Shown piece after piece: positions 50,197 through 56,936 of a stretch of DNA of 64,000 nt. Numbering within the stretch: position 1 is the first letter of the stretch; each line of letters opens with the position of its first letter. The stretch spans positions 3,410,001 to 3,474,000 of the forward strand of contig NZ_CP101156.1 of NCBI RefSeq assembly GCF_024298845.1, written 5' to 3'. A model generated the notes under the pieces. That model was given only the letters and a program-made list of their open reading frames with translations. It was not told where the DNA came from and searched no databases. Origin of the DNA: Natronosalvus amylolyticus. Lineage in GTDB: Archaea > Halobacteriota > Halobacteria > Halobacteriales > Natrialbaceae. Position numbers and translations under genes: made by a program.

Positions 50197-50378
50197 TCGA
50201 ATCGGTCGTCCTCGGGAACGCTGTGACGTGACGGCAACCGAATGCATTCTTTTTGCCTCGAGTGACTCAGGCCTCCAAAAAACTGCGTTTATCAAACCAG
50301 CCACTCTTCTTCGCACTTGTTAATAATATCGTCAGCTTCATTACTAACAATCCCTGATGTCTCGAGTAGCGTCTAACA

Positions 50379-51077
50379 ATGCGTCCAACAGATACGACTC
50401 AATCACGACGGAACGTACTACTCGGAACCGCGTCTATCGGTGCGCTTGCGCTCGCTGGCTGTCTCGGTGATGACGATGATGAGGGTGCTGGCGACGATCA
50501 CGACGATCATGACGATCATGATGACCACGACGACGACCATGACGACCACGATGACCACGATGACCACGACGACCACGATCATGAACACAGTGAGTCCGAA
50601 GTAGCCGAATCGGAGTTCGACCATATTGGAATCGAGGAGTTCAGCCTGCACGATGACCACGGGGATCGAATCGCGTGGGTCCACGGCGATCACTGGGATG
50701 GACGCCTTCCACAGATTCCAGTCGATGGGTCGGTCTCACTCGAGGCAAATGTGGAAACGGAAACGGGTGAGGAACTGACTTTCGAGGACGAGTACGAACT
50801 GCGCATTGCCTACGCACACGATGCTCCCGAAGGCGCACTCTCATTCGATACTCACGGAAAGGATGTCTCACTTGGTGGTGAGGAAACCGGTGTCACTGAT
50901 ATCGTCTTCTTGATATGGCACGATGATCATGCAGATTATCAGTCGCCTGGGCTTACCGCCCAAGTCGTGGATGAGGTTGACGACGACCACGATCACGATC
51001 ACGACCACGACCACGACCACGACGACGACCACGACGACGACCACGACCACGACGACGACCACGACCACGATCACTAA
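50379..51077 (+). CDS. His/Asp-rich Tat lipoprotein with a zinc-locus domain
   Basis: A 232-residue exported lipoprotein. It has a twin-arginine signal SRRNVLLG and lipobox LAGC (Cys28). Residues 31-70 and 200-232 are almost pure Asp/His (HDDHDDHDD; DHDHDHDHDH), able to bind many Zn ions. The domain between (about 84-197) has WVHGDHWDGRLPQIPVDGSV, YAHDAPEGALSFDTHG, and WHDDHAD. The same domain is found at residues 163-282 of the zinc-binding protein encoded at 53660. It probably traps zinc at the cell surface and passes it to the importer (inference). Confidence 0.85.
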   Translation: MRPTDTTQSRRNVLLGTASIGALALAGCLGDDDDEGAGDDHDDHDDHDDHDDDHDDHDDHDDHDDHDHEHSESEVAESEFDHIGIEEFSLHDDHGDRIAWVHGDHWDGRLPQIPVDGSVSLEANVETETGEELTFEDEYELRIAYAHDAPEGALSFDTHGKDVSLGGEETGVTDIVFLIWHDDHADYQSPGLTAQVVDEVDDDHDHDHDHDHDHDDDHDDDHDHDDDHDHDH

Positions 51078-51142
51078 TCATACCCAATCAGCTATTTCGG
51101 TCAGGTTGAAGGGGTGTTTTCTGTCGATTTTGCAGAAATATT

Positions 51143-51532
51143 GGCTCTGTTAAATCCTATGATGTATTATACATTTGTACAGTCATCGCTTATCAACCGC
51201 AACGCAGCGAAAGTCGAAGTTTCCCTTGGAGACAAGAGATACGACGTTCAACAGGTTCGGATAACGCCCCGTGAGTACGGGATTCCCCACTTATCAAACA
51301 TCGGGAGTTCTCCTCGCTTCAGAAAGTGTGGACGGTTCGGCTGGATAAGGAACGCTACAACGAACGGAGCCAGAGCGAAACGGTGAACTCTCAACTCAAG
51401 CGAAAATACGGTGCGTTCGTCCGTTCACGACGCTGTTGGAAGCAGTTTCGTGAACTCACCCTCGCGTGTATCGCCCACAATCTTGACCGAGTTCTCTAAC
51501 AGTCAATACCGTTTTTTCAGCCAATAACAGAG
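51143..51532. pseudogene. Remnant of a DDE-transposase insertion sequence
   Basis: Bases 51326-51499 encode the end of a DDE transposase (DKERYNERSQSETVNSQLKR ... RSRRCWKQFRELTLACIAHN, stop). This is a C-terminus with the last catalytic acidic residue in a Y(x)2(R)3E(x)6R-like context, as in the IS4/IS5 superfamily. The upstream part is in other frames and the catalytic centre is missing. CTCTGTTA (51145) and its reverse complement TAACAGAG (51525) may be what is left of the inverted repeats. The element is internally deleted and dead. Confidence 0.7.
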
Positions 51533-51540
51533 ATTTTGGG

Positions 51541-51840
51541 AGAAACCCTACGACTTCACTCCTGTCTCTTACCCACAAATGGCGCCGCTGTCGTGAGTGA
51601 ACAAGATCGAGGAATGCAACCGAAACTCCCGTTTTTCACGGGTACAATCAATCTCGAGGATCGATTCCGTCGATCCCGCCTACCGGTGTTCATCCACCCC
51701 AACCACTGGCATCATCGCTCGAATCGCTCCGAACCTCGAGTGTCCGGGCACAACTCGAGTTCGAAAGCGGCTGAAACGCCTGTTTGGAACGCCGTGGACT
51801 TATGGGTAAGAGACAGGACTTCACTCGTGGGAGGATGCTA
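51541..51840. mobile_element. IS200/IS605-like right-end hairpin interrupted by an insertion
   Basis: If the 255-bp element below and one copy of its target duplication are removed, the joined sequence reads GAAACCCTACGACTTCACTC then GTGGGAGGATGCT. This is the kind of hairpin that ends haloarchaeal IS200/IS605 and TnpB elements. The left half of the stem is CCCTACGA and the right half TCGTGGG. No tnpA or tnpB is left. It matches the scar at 2669. Confidence 0.5.
51562..51816. mobile_element. 255-bp MITE with 10-bp target duplication
   Basis: Terminal inverted repeats are CTGTCTCTTACCCACAA on the left and the complement of CTGTCTCTTACCCATAA on the right. The flanks GACTTCACTC (51552-51561 and 51817-51826) are identical 10-bp direct repeats. 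The CTGTCTCTTA end and a 10-bp duplication recall the IS4-type ISH8 group (from general knowledge). The inside has no transposase, so it would need one in trans. The intact duplication means the insertion is recent relative to decay of the neighbouring elements. Confidence 0.85.
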
Positions 51841-51933
51841 AAGTCTTTGAGGCATGTTTTCATCGGAATGAAGAAGCGGCAGGCGACGGTGTATTCCAAA
51901 GTCGTTAGGATTAGGTGATGTGATCGTTGCGAT

Positions 51934-53220
51934 ATGACGATTTCCGGAGCAGTCTTCAGATATTATCTCTACAAAGCGACGGAAGCGGTTGAGTTCTATC
52001 GGCCGATCATGTACCTTTACTTCCTCTCACAGGGACTCTCGTTCACACAAATCGTCATCGTCGAAGCGCTCTACAATCTGGCGACAGTTTTCGGGGAAGT
52101 ACCGACAGGCTACGTCGGTGACCGAATCGGTCGTCGAAATAGCCTGCTCGTCGGATCGGCACTCATTACGGCGACGTTAGTTGGTATCGCGTTTGCCTCT
52201 TCGTTTCTTGCGTTTGCCCTCTTGTTCATCTGTTGGTCGCTTGGCTATAACTTCCGCTCGGGAACGGAAGATGCGTGGGTGTATGAAACGCTCACCGACG
52301 TTTCGGCGAGTGACGAGTTTACTCGCGTTCGTGGACGTGGACAATCGATCGCTTTGACGGCCGGTGTCGGTGCGTCACTCGTCGGCGGATATCTCGGCGG
52401 ACTTGACCTCACGTATCCGTTTCTCGCGGCTGCGCTGTTCACCGGGTTAGGGCTGCTCGTGATCGTAACGCTAGACGAACCGGCGACGTACGAGGAAAGC
52501 GATTCGAGCGAGATGGGTATCCGAGAGGCGTGGGGTGTCGTGACGCAGGCTGTCGGTCAGCGTCGGCTCCGGTCGTTCATCGTCTACTACTTCGTGCTGT
52601 TCTCAGCCGTTACCTATCTCGTGTTCATCTTCCTCCAGCCGATCTTCGAGTCCGTGGTGACTGGCCTGAACATGAGTCTCACGCTCTCACTTCCTGTTCC
52701 CGGTCAAGAGAACCCCTACACTCTCGCTATTTCGACCGACAACGTCGAAACGTTGCTCGGGGTGTACTACGCAGCGATCAATCTCGTCTCGGCAGCGATC
52801 AGCTACCGTATCGGGTTCATTCAAGAGTGGATTGGACTGCGTCGGTGGTTTGTCGTCATCCCGCTCCTCGTCGGTGGTCTGTTAACAGCAATGGTGTTCG
52901 TGCCTTCGATAGCGCTCGTCGCGTTGTTCGTCGGGTGGGCGTGCGTTGAACCGACGCGAGTGCTTGCTGGACAGTACGTGAACGACCGTATCGAAACGCT
53001 CGGTCGTGCAACCGTATTGAGCGCAATGGCGATGGTAAGTGCGGTAACCGTTATTCCGTTCCAGCTCGGGAGCGGCGTGATTTCGGATGCTGTGTCACCC
53101 TTGATCGCACTCTCGACAGCAGGTGTGATACTGGTCGTCGGCTCAGTTGTGATCTCGCTCTGGGAATCGCCAATCGAAGAGCAAACAATGGGTTCGGATC
53201 CGGAAACTGGAATGTCGTGA
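51934..53220 (+). CDS. MFS transporter
   Basis: A 428-residue protein with 12 predicted membrane helices. The loop after helix 2 carries VPTGYVGDRIGRRNSLLVGS, the major facilitator signature, and the second half shows the weak internal repeat. It resembles the drug/unknown-efflux class. The substrate is unknown. It sits between mobile-element debris and the zinc importer genes. It could be part of metal homeostasis (metallophore or metal-complex movement) or an unrelated passenger. Confidence 0.85.
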   Translation: MTISGAVFRYYLYKATEAVEFYRPIMYLYFLSQGLSFTQIVIVEALYNLATVFGEVPTGYVGDRIGRRNSLLVGSALITATLVGIAFASSFLAFALLFICWSLGYNFRSGTEDAWVYETLTDVSASDEFTRVRGRGQSIALTAGVGASLVGGYLGGLDLTYPFLAAALFTGLGLLVIVTLDEPATYEESDSSEMGIREAWGVVTQAVGQRRLRSFIVYYFVLFSAVTYLVFIFLQPIFESVVTGLNMSLTLSLPVPGQENPYTLAISTDNVETLLGVYYAAINLVSAAISYRIGFIQEWIGLRRWFVVIPLLVGGLLTAMVFVPSIALVALFVGWACVEPTRVLAGQYVNDRIETLGRATVLSAMAMVSAVTVIPFQLGSGVISDAVSPLIALSTAGVILVVGSVVISLWESPIEEQTMGSDPETGMS

Positions 53221-53244
53221 AAGAGCCGTTCGCGGTCATTATAG

Positions 53245-53320
53245 TAGCCATTGAAAGTCATTGCACATCTTATCGCATGTTGGCGTCGCGATAGGTGTGT
53301 GAATCGTTTCAATGGTTACT
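53245..53320. repeat. 76-bp palindromic intergenic element, family 2, copy 2
   Basis: The ends GTAGCCATTGAAA and TTTCAATGGTTAC pair with one mismatch, and the stem extends outward by TATA on both sides (53241-53324). The inside (GTCATTGCACA ... GGTGTGTGAATCG) matches copy 1 at 29737 in most positions and has the same length. It lies after the MFS gene and before the zinc importer operon. The remaining 330 bases up to 53660 are AT-rich with no recognised gene. Confidence 0.8.
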
Positions 53321-53659
53321 ATAGTTTTCATGGGCAGTATTTTCAGCAGAGTTGGTGTATGAATACGAATATTTCAACAGAACCGGAATTTCCATAGGCG
53401 GTACAGCGCACGAACTCCGATCTGTGAAATCGGGGTTGTTGACGGTGATATTGTATTGAGGCGGTACTCGAGAATTGGTCGAGAACACTCAAAATTTCAT
53501 TGCAATTGGCTCCCGCAAGGAACCGTTGTACTCTCTCTCTCTCGTCGATCTCGAACTCGAGGGAAGAATTACCAAAATAGCGACTCGAACTCCCCAGGAT
53601 TATTAAACCAACCAATTTAGATAATAACTCTTTTATCGGTGAGCCGATTTCATTCGGGT

Positions 53660-55081
53660 ATGAAATGCACACGCCGGAATGTGCTTCAGCGCGGTGGGGC
53701 AGCCGTCGCTGTCGGTGCACTTGCCGGCTGTCTGAGTGAACCGGGCGAGGATGGTTCCGACGACGATTCGGGCACCAACAACGAGGATGAGGCAGGCGGC
53801 CTCACCGGGTACGCTTCCTTTTTCGCTCTCTGGGACTGGGCCAACGAGATCACTGGTGAACACGGAACGTTCGAAAATCCCGTCGACGTCGGAGAAATGG
53901 GGCACGGGTGGACGCCAGAGGGAGATCTCGTCCGCAACGTTGCAGAGACAGATGCGTTCGTCTATCTCGACACGCCGGAGTTTTCCTGGGCACAGGACCT
54001 GGCAGCGCAACTCGAGGCCGAGTCGGTCGATGTGGCCACCATCGATGGGTTGGCCGGCTTTACCGATGACCAACTTCTCTCGTTTTCGGATGGGAGCCTT
54101 CCGGATCCAGACCCGGAGTACACTGTCGATCCGGCCGATTTCACCCTTGAGGAGTTCCAGGTAATCGATCCGACGACGAACGAGGTCACTGCCTACTGGC
54201 ACATCGATCACTGGGACGGCGGCCTTCCGAACGTCCCGCTCGAAGGCGCAGTTCGATTCGAACCGTTCGTCGAAGCCGACGGTGGACACGTCGTCCCGCT
54301 TGGCCCGGATGAGGAGTTGCAGGTCGACGTTCGTCTGGACGACGGCGCACCCGAGGGTATCGTCGACCTCGAGTCAGATGGAAACACCGTCGAAATTACC
54401 GGCCTCGAGGAGGGTCGAACGCTACTCGTGTTCGAACTGCACCATGATGGGTCAGTTATCTGGGACTCGAGTGCGGGCGCACTCAGTATCGACGTCTCTG
54501 CGGACGTCGATCCCGCTGACGTGACGGAGTTCCACGATCCGCACGTGTGGGCCGACCCAGTGCTTGCGACCCAGATCGTAGAGACGTTTGCACGTGAGTT
54601 TGCCACACTGGATCCGGACAATGCGGCCACGTACGAAGCGAACGCGAAGGCGTATGCACAACGGCTTGAGGGAGTCGACGAGGGGTTCCAGTCGGCGGTC
54701 GCAGACGGCGAACTCGATATCGCCGTCTTCGCCGGCCACGACTCCTTTCGCTACGTCGAACATCGGTACGGGTTCGATCTGCACTCACCGGTGGGCGTCT
54801 CACCTGACGAATCGCCGAGTTCCGGTGAAATTACGGCGACGATCGAACTCGTCGACGAACACGGTATCGATACGATCCTGTACGACCCTTTCGAGGCGAC
54901 GAACGAGGAAATCCCGCCACTCGCCCAGACTATCGTCGAGAACAGTAGCGCAACCGAGACCGCACCCATGACGCCTGCTGAAGGCACCCTCGCCGAGTGG
55001 CACGAGCAGGGCTGGGGCTGGATCGAACAGATGGAAGAAGTGACGATACCTTCGCTTCGCAAGGCACTCAAAGCAGATTGA
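53660..55081 (+). CDS. znuA: Zinc ABC transporter substrate-binding lipoprotein (ZnuA-like) with inserted domain
   Basis: A 473-residue Tat lipoprotein (CTRRNVLQRGG, lipobox LAGC, Cys24) of the cluster A-I metal-binding family. Expected Zn ligands are His82 (MGHGWTPEGD), His295 (DPHVWADP), His360 (AGHDSFRYVEHRYGF), and an acidic residue near 408-412. Between ligands one and two, where ZnuA usually has a His-rich loop, is a domain of about 120 residues (about 163-282; AYWHIDHWDGGLPNVPLEGA, DDGAPEGIVDLESDG, FELHHDG) shared with the lipoprotein at 50379. The stop overlaps the ATPase start by one base. Mn cannot be excluded as substrate. Confidence 0.9.
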   Translation: MKCTRRNVLQRGGAAVAVGALAGCLSEPGEDGSDDDSGTNNEDEAGGLTGYASFFALWDWANEITGEHGTFENPVDVGEMGHGWTPEGDLVRNVAETDAFVYLDTPEFSWAQDLAAQLEAESVDVATIDGLAGFTDDQLLSFSDGSLPDPDPEYTVDPADFTLEEFQVIDPTTNEVTAYWHIDHWDGGLPNVPLEGAVRFEPFVEADGGHVVPLGPDEELQVDVRLDDGAPEGIVDLESDGNTVEITGLEEGRTLLVFELHHDGSVIWDSSAGALSIDVSADVDPADVTEFHDPHVWADPVLATQIVETFAREFATLDPDNAATYEANAKAYAQRLEGVDEGFQSAVADGELDIAVFAGHDSFRYVEHRYGFDLHSPVGVSPDESPSSGEITATIELVDEHGIDTILYDPFEATNEEIPPLAQTIVENSSATETAPMTPAEGTLAEWHEQGWGWIEQMEEVTIPSLRKALKAD

Positions 55082-55884
55082 TGGCAGGAACCGCTCACAC
55101 GGAAAGTGCAAGAACTAACTCGGCGGCGGTCGGAGAGTCGGCCGTGACCTCCGCGGTCGACGTTCGGAACGTCTCGTTTGCCTACGGCGATTCGCCCGTC
55201 GTCAAAGACGTGTCTCTAACGATCGAGAAGGGCGAGTTCCTGGGGCTAATCGGTCCTAACGGGTCTGGAAAGACGACCTTATTGCATCTCATGCTCGGCC
55301 TCCTCGAGCCCGATTCCGGTTCCATCGACCTCTTCGGGAAACCCGTCGAGGAGTTCAGCGCGGGCGACCGCATCGGATACGTTTCCCAGCAATCGACTAA
55401 TCGGGGCGGTTCGATGCCGGTAACCGTCCGTGAAGCCGTGAAAATGGGACGGTTCGCCCACGCAGGACACGCACGCTTGAAAGAACGGGATTATGCGGCC
55501 ATCGAGGATGCCATCGAGACCGTCGGCATCGAGGACCTTGCAGACCGGCGCGTCAACGCACTCTCCGGTGGCCAGCGCCAGCGTGCGTTCATCGCCCGTG
55601 CACTCGCCTCCGAATCCGACTTGCTCGCACTCGACGAGCCAACTGTCGGCGTCGATGCCGAGTCTCGAGACGCCTTCTATCAGCTGCTCGAGTCACTCAA
55701 CGACTCCGGTATCACCATCATCCTCATCGAACACGACATCGGTGTCGTCACCGACCGTGCCTCGCGAATCGCCTGTATCAACACGGAACTGTACCACCAC
55801 GGCGACACCGAATCGTTCGTCCAGAGCGACGCGCTCGCCGAGGCCTACGGAGCGACGGGAACCGTCGTCCACCACGATCACTGA
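55081..55884 (+). CDS. znuC: Zinc ABC transporter ATP-binding protein
   Basis: A 267-residue ABC ATPase powering metal uptake. Walker A is GPNGSGKTTLL, the Q-loop is YVSQQS, the signature is LSGGQRQRAFIARAL, Walker B is LLALDEPTVGVD and the H-loop is LIEHDIG. About 25 acidic residues precede the core. The C-terminus has a His-rich YHHGD and VVHHDH. It overlaps by one base with both the binding protein and the permease genes, so the three are a tightly coupled operon. Confidence 0.95.
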   Translation: MAGTAHTESARTNSAAVGESAVTSAVDVRNVSFAYGDSPVVKDVSLTIEKGEFLGLIGPNGSGKTTLLHLMLGLLEPDSGSIDLFGKPVEEFSAGDRIGYVSQQSTNRGGSMPVTVREAVKMGRFAHAGHARLKERDYAAIEDAIETVGIEDLADRRVNALSGGQRQRAFIARALASESDLLALDEPTVGVDAESRDAFYQLLESLNDSGITIILIEHDIGVVTDRASRIACINTELYHHGDTESFVQSDALAEAYGATGTVVHHDH

Positions 55885-56936
55885 TGACCGAAAACGTCGA
55901 CACTACAGTCGCCCGCGAAACCGACTCTAGCCGCGATATTCGCCGCCTGCTCGAACTGGCTGGTCTGGCGGTTACGGGTGCCGTTTCCCTCGTGATGCTC
56001 GCCTTTATCATCCTCTTTTGGCTTCAGGAACAAGGCATCGCAACGGGAGCCTACGAACAGTTTATGATCGCCGGCCAGTGGCTCGATCACTACCTCGGAA
56101 CGAACGTCTTCAAGTGGGCGTTCATGTGGCAACAATTAGCGATGGGCGTCTTGATCGGCATCGTTGCGCCACTCATCGGCACGTTCCTCGTCCACCGGGA
56201 GATGGCACTCATCGGCGAGACGCTCGCCCACACTGCCTTCGCCGGGGTTGCCATCGGCTTTGCCGCCGGTTCGTTGGTCGGAATCAACGTGCCGCTGTAC
56301 TTTGCGCTGGTCGTCAGCATCCTTGGCGCACTCGGCGTGCAGTGGCTTTCAGAACACACCGACACCTACGGCGACGTTCCCGTTGCGATCATGCTTACCG
56401 GGAGTTTCGCCGTCGGGACGCTGGTCATTAGTTGGGGTCGCGGTCAGCGCGGCATCAGCATCGAGGGGTTCCTCTGGGGCGACCTGTCGATCGTGACGGC
56501 CTCGAGCGCCCGATTGATGGCCGTATTGAGTGTCATCGTCGTCGCGGTCGTCATCTACACGTACAAGCAACTGGTGTTCATCACCTTCGACGAACAGGCT
56601 GCCCGGGTGGCCAGGCTCAACGTCACCGCCTACAACACAATTCTGGTCGTCATGACGGCCGTCGTCGTCGTCGGCTCGATGCAGGTTCTCGGCGTTATTC
56701 TGGTCGCCGGAATGCTCGTTATTCCGGTTGCTGCGGCCTCCCAGATCGCCCACGGCTTCCGCGAGACGATGTACCTGTCCGTGCTGTTCGGCCAACTCTC
56801 GATCGCTGGGGGCTTGGCCATGGCGATCACCTACGGACTGCCCTCGGGCGGATCGATCATCGTCGTCGCAATCGCTTTCTACCTGCTAACGATTGGCCTC
56901 TCGAGTGACGGTGTCCGGTCGCTTTCGATGCATTAA
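55884..56936 (+). CDS. znuB: Zinc ABC transporter permease
   Basis: A 350-residue permease of the ABC-3 metal family (ZnuB/TroC). It has about eight to nine membrane helices after an acidic N-terminal segment (residues 1-28) and one helix unusual for the family (about 33-55). Family features are MWQQLAMGVLIGIVAPLIGT, REMALIGETLAHTAFAGVAIG and LGVILVAGMLVIPVAAASQIA. It starts on the last base of the ATPase stop. It forms the membrane pore of the importer. Confidence 0.95.
   Translation: MTENVDTTVARETDSSRDIRRLLELAGLAVTGAVSLVMLAFIILFWLQEQGIATGAYEQFMIAGQWLDHYLGTNVFKWAFMWQQLAMGVLIGIVAPLIGTFLVHREMALIGETLAHTAFAGVAIGFAAGSLVGINVPLYFALVVSILGALGVQWLSEHTDTYGDVPVAIMLTGSFAVGTLVISWGRGQRGISIEGFLWGDLSIVTASSARLMAVLSVIVVAVVIYTYKQLVFITFDEQAARVARLNVTAYNTILVVMTAVVVVGSMQVLGVILVAGMLVIPVAAASQIAHGFRETMYLSVLFGQLSIAGGLAMAITYGLPSGGSIIVVAIAFYLLTIGLSSDGVRSLSMH

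Follow-up and report, generated by a model that had tools for sequence, protein, structure and literature searches.

The window analysed here is a stretch of 64,000 nucleotides from the haloarchaeon Natronosalvus amylolyticus (Natrialbaceae; contig NZ_CP101156.1 of assembly GCF_024298845.1, positions 3,410,001 to 3,474,000). It encodes an Asp/His-rich lipoprotein and, 2.6 kb downstream, a ZnuA-like binding protein with its transporter. The two proteins share a domain, which in ZnuA is inserted between two of the zinc ligands, and both genes are preceded by a common 30-bp operator. The locus is quite probably a zinc-starvation uptake system in which the surface lipoprotein feeds ZnuABC. The shared domain is probably zinc-binding and appears to represent an undescribed family.

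In the mechanism that we propose, the lipoprotein, exported by the twin-arginine translocation (Tat) pathway, would capture Zn2+ on the cell surface via its Asp/His tracts and the HGxHx[HD] site of its immunoglobulin (Ig)-like domain, which would raise the zinc held near the importer. The copy of the domain in ZnuA would act as an enlarged, folded counterpart of the His-rich capture and hand-over loop of bacterial ZnuA. Zinc would then leave these weaker sites for the high-affinity site formed by H82, H295, and H360, and pass on from there through ZnuB and ZnuC. The lipoprotein gene and znuA would be derepressed, together with the gene for a ZigA-like zinc metallochaperone, via the common operator. 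In this scheme, we infer zinc as the bound metal, zinc as the regulatory signal, and the transfer from the lipoprotein to ZnuA.

The original prediction had aligned the two proteins over about 115 residues and considered the shared segment an unrecognised domain, and both points have held up. A composition-adjusted BLASTP comparison aligns residues 85–189 of the lipoprotein with residues 163–270 of ZnuA at 35% identity and 55% positives over 108 residues, with an E-value of 5e-14 for the full proteins and of 1e-17 for the two segments alone. The lipoprotein segment, used as a query against 125 genomes of the family, recovers the ZnuA segment unaided (E = 8.7e-14); the likeness is therefore more than a by-product of the acidic composition of haloarchaeal proteins. 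The two segments are homologous. No family covers the domain in Pfam and NCBIfam scans of the proteins, and 115 copies of the domain scanned singly against Pfam give no family match over the cut-off. A 115-row profile of the domain produces no meaningful E-value against the PDB sequences, where an Ig-type sequence reaches E = 0.039, and the profile searches return no match to a known non-metal domain. A tblastn search for the domain on plasmids also gives no match.

The fold of the domain has been predicted with AlphaFold2 using the 115-copy alignment. The model (126 residues, mean predicted local distance difference test score of 91) is all-beta with 11 strands, and the ZnuA insert, modelled inside the whole protein, shows the identical order of 11 strands; each copy is predicted to be the same Ig-like sandwich. 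The domain model is structurally closest to Ig-like domains of the surface-layer (S-layer) and filamin type, among them SbsC (Z = 9.4, 87 residues, 2.3 Å), and a Foldseek search with the domain model gives no match below 1e-3. As modelled, the domain is an Ig-like beta-sandwich with no close solved relative in the searches made, in which the structural libraries yielded common Ig-like matches only and families outside these libraries may still match. Ig-like domains are common envelope spacers, and the fold matches to S-layer Ig domains would suit a structural spacer or S-layer contact that holds ZnuA or the lipoprotein in the envelope, the histidines being incidental. This is unlikely, as the most conserved residues include the His and Trp of HxxHW, beyond the core residues, the context of the domain is metal transport, and ZnuA homologues exist without the domain.

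The conserved motif has the form HGxHW[HD]G. In lipoprotein numbering, H102 is conserved in 93% of the 115 copies and H105 and W106 in 98% each; the pattern HxxHxH is found in 102 copies and HGxHx[HD] in 92. In the AlphaFold model of the domain, the motif lies at the turn between two strands (fragment residues 22–27 and 30–33). The lipoprotein of the window carries it as HGDHWD (residues 102–107, positions 50682..50699, + strand), which is the proposed zinc site based on conservation over the 115 copies, and the ZnuA insert carries it as HIDHWD (54200..54217, + strand, by alignment), in which H181, H184, and W185 are invariant in 34 ZnuA homologues. Two unrelated zinc proteins offer a precedent. 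In site 2 of AztD, zinc is bound by H99, H102, and D104, with a conserved G100, on a beta-hairpin of the form H-G-x-H-x-D (PMC6689063), and PhtD has an HxxHxH zinc site (PMC3842936). Since a matching pattern binds zinc in both proteins, zinc binding at the HGxHx[HD] hairpin of the domain can reasonably be expected by analogy. Two more His motifs, HGDHVH and HDDHxD, are well conserved in the lipoproteins and less so in the haloarchaeal ZnuA inserts.

The lipoprotein gene (50379..51077, + strand, 232 residues) encodes, as read from its sequence, a Tat-type signal (SRRNVLLG) and a lipobox (LAGC). The domain occupies residues 84–197 (50628..50969, + strand, assigned from homology and the 11-strand model). 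The tracts of Asp and His proposed earlier to flank it are present on both sides, before it at about residues 31–70 (50469..50588, + strand) and after it at residues 201–232 (50979..51074, + strand), both read directly from the sequence.

The binding protein (53660..55081, + strand, 473 residues) is a predicted zinc-binding lipoprotein of the TroA/ZnuA fold, and its start is most likely the ATG at 53660 rather than the GTG at 53639. The Pfam family ZnuA (PF01297) matches it at 141.6 bits against a cut-off of 29, in two pieces (profile positions 2–83 and then 76–242) with the insert between them. The model of the protein superposes over about 260 residues on Lmb (Z = 30.4), Lbp (29.7), and AdcAII (29.2), and the comparison with Lmb, AztC, AdcAII, TroA, and others gives Z-scores of 26–30 over about the same length. 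An alignment to 33 homologues and AdcA/YcdH identifies zinc ligands 1–3 as the invariant residues H82 (in GHGWTP, 53903..53905), H295 (in DPHVW, 54542..54544), and H360 (in GHDSF, 54737..54739), all on the + strand. The insert (residues 163–281, 54146..54502, + strand, from homology and the model) is flanked by H82 and H295, as had been claimed for it, and so lies in the loop that is His-rich in zinc-specific members; the alignment and the TroA/ZnuA-fold comparison agree in equating it with the position of the His-rich loop of bacterial ZnuA. The protein thus has the three-His ligand set of the zinc-specific members of PF01297, with their His-rich loop replaced by the domain. The genes that follow encode a ZnuC-type ABC (ATP-binding cassette) ATPase (55084..55884, + strand; the closest NCBIfam model is AztA, below its cut-off) and a ZnuB-type permease of the ABC-3 family (55884..56936, + strand, from the Pfam and NCBIfam scans). 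The ATPase and the permease score best to AztA and AztB, and all matches to the AztA, AztB, and AztC models are below the cut-offs.

The domain was inserted into one and the same loop of ZnuA on at least two occasions, in archaea and, separately, in Izimaplasma. A tree of the 115 copies places 19 haloarchaeal ZnuA inserts in a single group with a Shimodaira–Hasegawa-like approximate likelihood ratio support of 100, while the inserts of Izimaplasma fall among the domains of Izimaplasma lipoproteins. An approximately unbiased (AU) test on 39 rows rejects a single clade of haloarchaeal and Izimaplasma inserts (p = 0.0026), the groups for the test having been picked with the first tree already known, and it is this rejection, with the placement in the tree, on which the count of two insertions is based. 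The same test cannot separate the two inserts of locus L065 from the other haloarchaeal inserts, and the short alignment weakens the finer forks of the tree.

The operator has the form RTTANTAA-N14-WTANTAAY and occurs with identical spacing upstream of the lipoprotein gene (GTTAATAA-N14-TTACTAAC, 50319..50348, + strand) and of znuA (ATTATTAA-N14-ATAATAAC, 53599..53628, + strand), both as exact matches. Window shuffles give an expectation of zero for these two sites, and the whole genome of 4.2 Mb contains three. The third lies between a gene for a CobW-type (COG0523) GTPase and a divergent gene for an FAD/NAD-binding protein (FAD, flavin adenine dinucleotide; NAD, nicotinamide adenine dinucleotide). 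The GTPase matches the zinc metallochaperone ZigA (NF038288) over its full length with an E-value of 5.7e-128, below the curated cut-off. Among 23 genomes of the family, that of the window included, 20 have operator sites, 44 in total, and the reversed pattern has none in the same 23 genomes. Forty of the 44 sites stand directly before znuA, the domain lipoprotein gene, the ZigA-like gene (one of these a fragment), or its FAD partner, and a 41st precedes the gene of another Asp/His-rich lipoprotein (genome G122). Genomes without the domain retain the operator at znuA; one of them has it at the ZigA-like gene as well. No exact site exists in the relative G117, which shows that some sites escape the pattern in its present form.

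As the operator precedes znuA and a zinc-related COG0523 GTPase gene, and as a DtxR-type zinc regulator, ZntR, has been predicted for znuABC and a COG0523 gene in Methanosarcina (PMC2770081), the best reading of these sequence data is a predicted zinc-starvation regulon. The likeness to the ZntR regulon is in the predicted co-regulation of the two kinds of gene, and it has been drawn without the ZntR motif itself; Methanosarcina is another lineage, and the operator and the lipoprotein found here are absent from that description. In the literature found, the 30-bp operator has no description, and the only haloarchaeal or related regulators described are SirR, for manganese, and the predicted ZntR. 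In Halobacterium, zurM/zurA/ycdH are repressed by SirR in a Mn-dependent manner (PMC3600143). By this precedent, the binding protein could mainly import manganese, as the Halobacterium transporter does, under a Mn-responsive operator of the SirR/DtxR type, and the genome does encode two DtxR-type proteins, with no match to the Fur family (PF01475, which includes Zur) found in it. We regard this as improbable, given the match of the third gene under the operator to the zinc metallochaperone ZigA and given that a DtxR-type regulator may be a zinc regulator, as predicted for ZntR. Three-His ligands with a His-rich loop are, moreover, typical of zinc-specific binding proteins, and Mn-binding ones usually lack the loop. 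The operator and the separate insertion events strengthen the reading of the locus as a metal-uptake system.

Three of the 44 sites stand away from zinc genes (L174:3001, L175:3001, and L184:3001), near a peptide-type ABC permease gene, a gene for a DoxX-like membrane protein, and a short reading frame. The gene of the FAD/NAD-binding oxidoreductase (L138:6860-8122, with NAD_binding_9 and Pyr_redox matches) lies on the other side of the operator from the ZigA-like gene, in divergent orientation, and has a site of its own in other genomes. An operator-like site with two mismatches (L139:3889-3918, - strand) is found shortly upstream of a paralogous znuA in the genome of the window; it may be a weak site or merely A+T-rich promoter DNA.

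The domain is present in 58 of the 125 family genomes, compared with 18 of 393 genomes in a phylum-wide sample, and a scan of 84,980 species genomes yields 69 loci. It is a mobile module, mostly of haloalkaliphilic archaea and bacteria, that is usually found beside or inside ZnuA and sometimes in operons for cobalt/nickel transporters of the energy-coupling factor (ECF) type. In haloarchaea with full context, the usual gene order is a lipoprotein with one to three copies of the domain, ZnuA with the insert, ZnuC, and ZnuB. In Thermoplasmata, ZnuA has two to three copies, on both sides of the C-terminal lobe, and in Izimaplasma, Acholeplasmatales, and other Mollicutes it has one to three copies in the loop. 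The domain is thus found mostly in metal-uptake settings and is not confined to proteins outside them. Among named organisms, Natronosalvus hydrolyticus has the closest locus, with its two domain copies 97% and 93% identical to those here. In Natronococcus (L019:571-1107, L091, L094, L095, and L097), a third domain lipoprotein without an Asp/His tract is encoded upstream; it has lost most of the motif histidines and reads IEGDGWEV in place of HGDHWHG.

Several observations weigh against a system in which the bound metal is always zinc and both copies of the domain bind it alike. Family membership is the basis on which a metal is assigned to each transporter, and a paralogous ZnuA in the same genome has neither the insert nor an exact operator. 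The histidines of motifs 2 and 3 are conserved at 10–43% in haloarchaeal ZnuA inserts versus 78–90% in haloarchaeal lipoproteins; as these motifs are mostly lost there, the insert may bind metal less well than the lipoprotein domain. In soda-lake Syntrophomonadaceae and Tindallia (L046-L054), a domain lipoprotein is encoded between CbiO and CbiM of CbiQ-CbiO-CbiM operons for Co/Ni ECF transporters, which suggests a role in cobalt or nickel uptake. In Myxococcales, Lujinxingia, and a Gemmatimonadota metagenome-assembled genome, domain lipoproteins, mostly with several copies, have no transporter neighbours in the stretch read. From the Cbi operons and these transporter-free loci it follows that the metal need not be zinc everywhere. 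The domain could accordingly be a general metal-capture module that binds several divalent metals, the metal being set by the transporter that it joins, zinc with ZnuA and cobalt or nickel with CbiMQO. His metal sites are usually promiscuous, and the lipoproteins between CbiO and CbiM speak for such a module. Against it, the operator set in the family of the window consists of zinc genes (ZnuA, ZigA-like), and the association with ZnuA spans archaea and bacteria. We place this alternative somewhat below an even chance.

A surface zinc trap with a matching acceptor domain had been proposed for the pair. The trap is supported by the mostly metal-uptake contexts of the domain and by the operator shared with the zinc-metallochaperone GTPase, whereas an obligatory pairing of donor and matching acceptor is weakened by genomes with swapped or missing partners. 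In haloarchaeal loci with full context, the two copies mostly co-occur. However, six genomes (G034, G085, G102, G107, G109, and G122) combine the ZnuA insert with a different type of Asp/His-rich lipoprotein in the lipoprotein slot. In three of the same genus as the window (G111, G112, and G114), no lipoprotein gene adjoins znuA, and the ZnuA loop itself contains both the tract and the domain. G018 has the ZnuA insert alone, and the lipoprotein is the sole carrier of the domain in G015, whose ZnuA has a classical His-rich loop. Pairing of domain with domain is not obligatory, and homotypic docking is not required, as these partner-swapped and unpaired genomes exist. A relay in which the lipoprotein domain docks on the ZnuA domain of identical fold and hands zinc over by that contact is possible where both copies are present. 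The same domain in both partners, their proximity in nearly all full-context haloarchaeal loci, and the common operator favour it, as does the AztC loop at the same position, which is needed for transfer from AztD (PMC6689063). Set against the six genomes with another lipoprotein type, the one with the domain solely in the lipoprotein, and the three with no adjacent lipoprotein, a relay of this kind seems rather doubtful. General zinc capture near ZnuA, on the other hand, explains all arrangements seen.

The tract and the domain act like exchangeable elements of a single capture module. In G111 and G114, the ZnuA loop contains an extended Asp/His tract and, after it, the domain, and in G015, an Asp/His-rich loop stands alone in ZnuA while the domain is in the lipoprotein. 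The second family of Asp/His-rich Tat lipoproteins, with the motif DHACxH...DERExLxAG...DAPTISDTHQPF, is encoded beside insert-bearing znuA in at least six genomes (for example L157:1613-2341, - strand; L193:2696-3412; L199:506-1378), in G122 beside an exact operator. Exported proteins of roughly 870–1055 residues at L013, L016, L028, and L029 combine two to three copies of the domain with repeats like the second-type lipoprotein domain (NDHACxHxxxDxRTPLDAG), and G034 encodes one such multi-domain protein near operator-bearing ZigA/FAD genes (L172).

By comparison with known systems, the locus would work in kind like PhtD–AdcAII or AztD–AztC, yet it is a member of neither. For PhtD, zinc scavenging and hand-over have been demonstrated (PMC3842936), and the likeness lies in a surface His-rich protein that adjoins a ZnuA-type lipoprotein and carries HxxHxH. 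The Pht unit, however, is a three-stranded sheet, whereas the domain described here is an 11-strand Ig-like sandwich, and no Pht unit has been described in AdcAII, whereas ZnuA here carries the domain. Membership of the Pht family, suggested by HGDHxH, has been rejected; the Pht PROSITE motif is found in none of the 115 copies, and the Pfam family Strep_his_triad (PF04270) reaches a best E-value of 0.0089, with matches in six of the 115. AztD–AztC likewise pairs a zinc protein outside the cytoplasm with a ZnuA-type binding protein encoded alongside it; AztD has the H-G-x-H-x-D hairpin and is a beta-propeller. The 126-residue, 11-strand model is too small for an AztD-type propeller, which has been rejected for the domain, AztD itself not having been compared directly. 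Zinc transfer from AztD to AztC depends on a flexible loop of AztC (PMC6689063), but that loop is short and has no inserted domain.

ZinT–ZnuA and the ZnuA His-rich loop offer a flexible His-rich segment at the same position of ZnuA, of the kind found in G015, whereas here a folded domain (about 115 residues) takes that position, either by itself or preceded by an Asp/His tract. In cyanobacteria, ZepA is a zinc-binding exoprotein of a zinc regulon with an Ig-like domain and the motif H-x(2-9)-H-[FY]-H (PMC10957091). It differs in its second domain, PEP-CTERM sorting, bacterial origin, and mostly vertical inheritance, as compared by description and not by sequence.

Zinc acquisition and the sensing of zinc shortage have been little studied in haloarchaea and haloalkaliphiles, and the locus offers a testable zinc-capture domain with a defined operator that has three sites in one genome. 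What tract, domain, and loop each contribute can be told apart with the natural variants, some of which have the domain in the lipoprotein, others in the ZnuA loop, and others joined to the Asp/His tract. If true, the separate insertion of one domain into one ZnuA loop in both archaea and bacteria would argue strongly, on evolutionary grounds, that the loop receives zinc. In its fullest form, the interpretation would be that an undescribed zinc-binding Ig-like family has spread among haloalkaliphiles, has been inserted separately into the ZnuA loop in archaea and Izimaplasma, is controlled in Natrialbaceae through a zinc regulon that uses the 30-bp operator, and forms a donor–acceptor relay for zinc-poor soda brines; the chances for and against this whole are evenly balanced.

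Low zinc in soda lakes would be part of that picture, and a literature search for zinc levels in soda lakes found no direct measurement. About 41 of the 69 loci, a raw share that comes from a search pattern itself derived from haloalkaliphile sequences, carry codes which, B1Sed10 apart, we take to be those of soda-lake metagenome samples. B1Sed10 is a soda-lake metagenome sample code (PMC6146748). Many of the other loci belong to named haloalkaliphiles.

Between the lipoprotein gene and znuA, the window contains a 2.26-kb stretch (51143-53398) with a gene for a transporter of the major facilitator superfamily (51934-53220). This stretch is missing in Natronosalvus hydrolyticus (L083), where the lipoprotein gene and znuA are neighbours.

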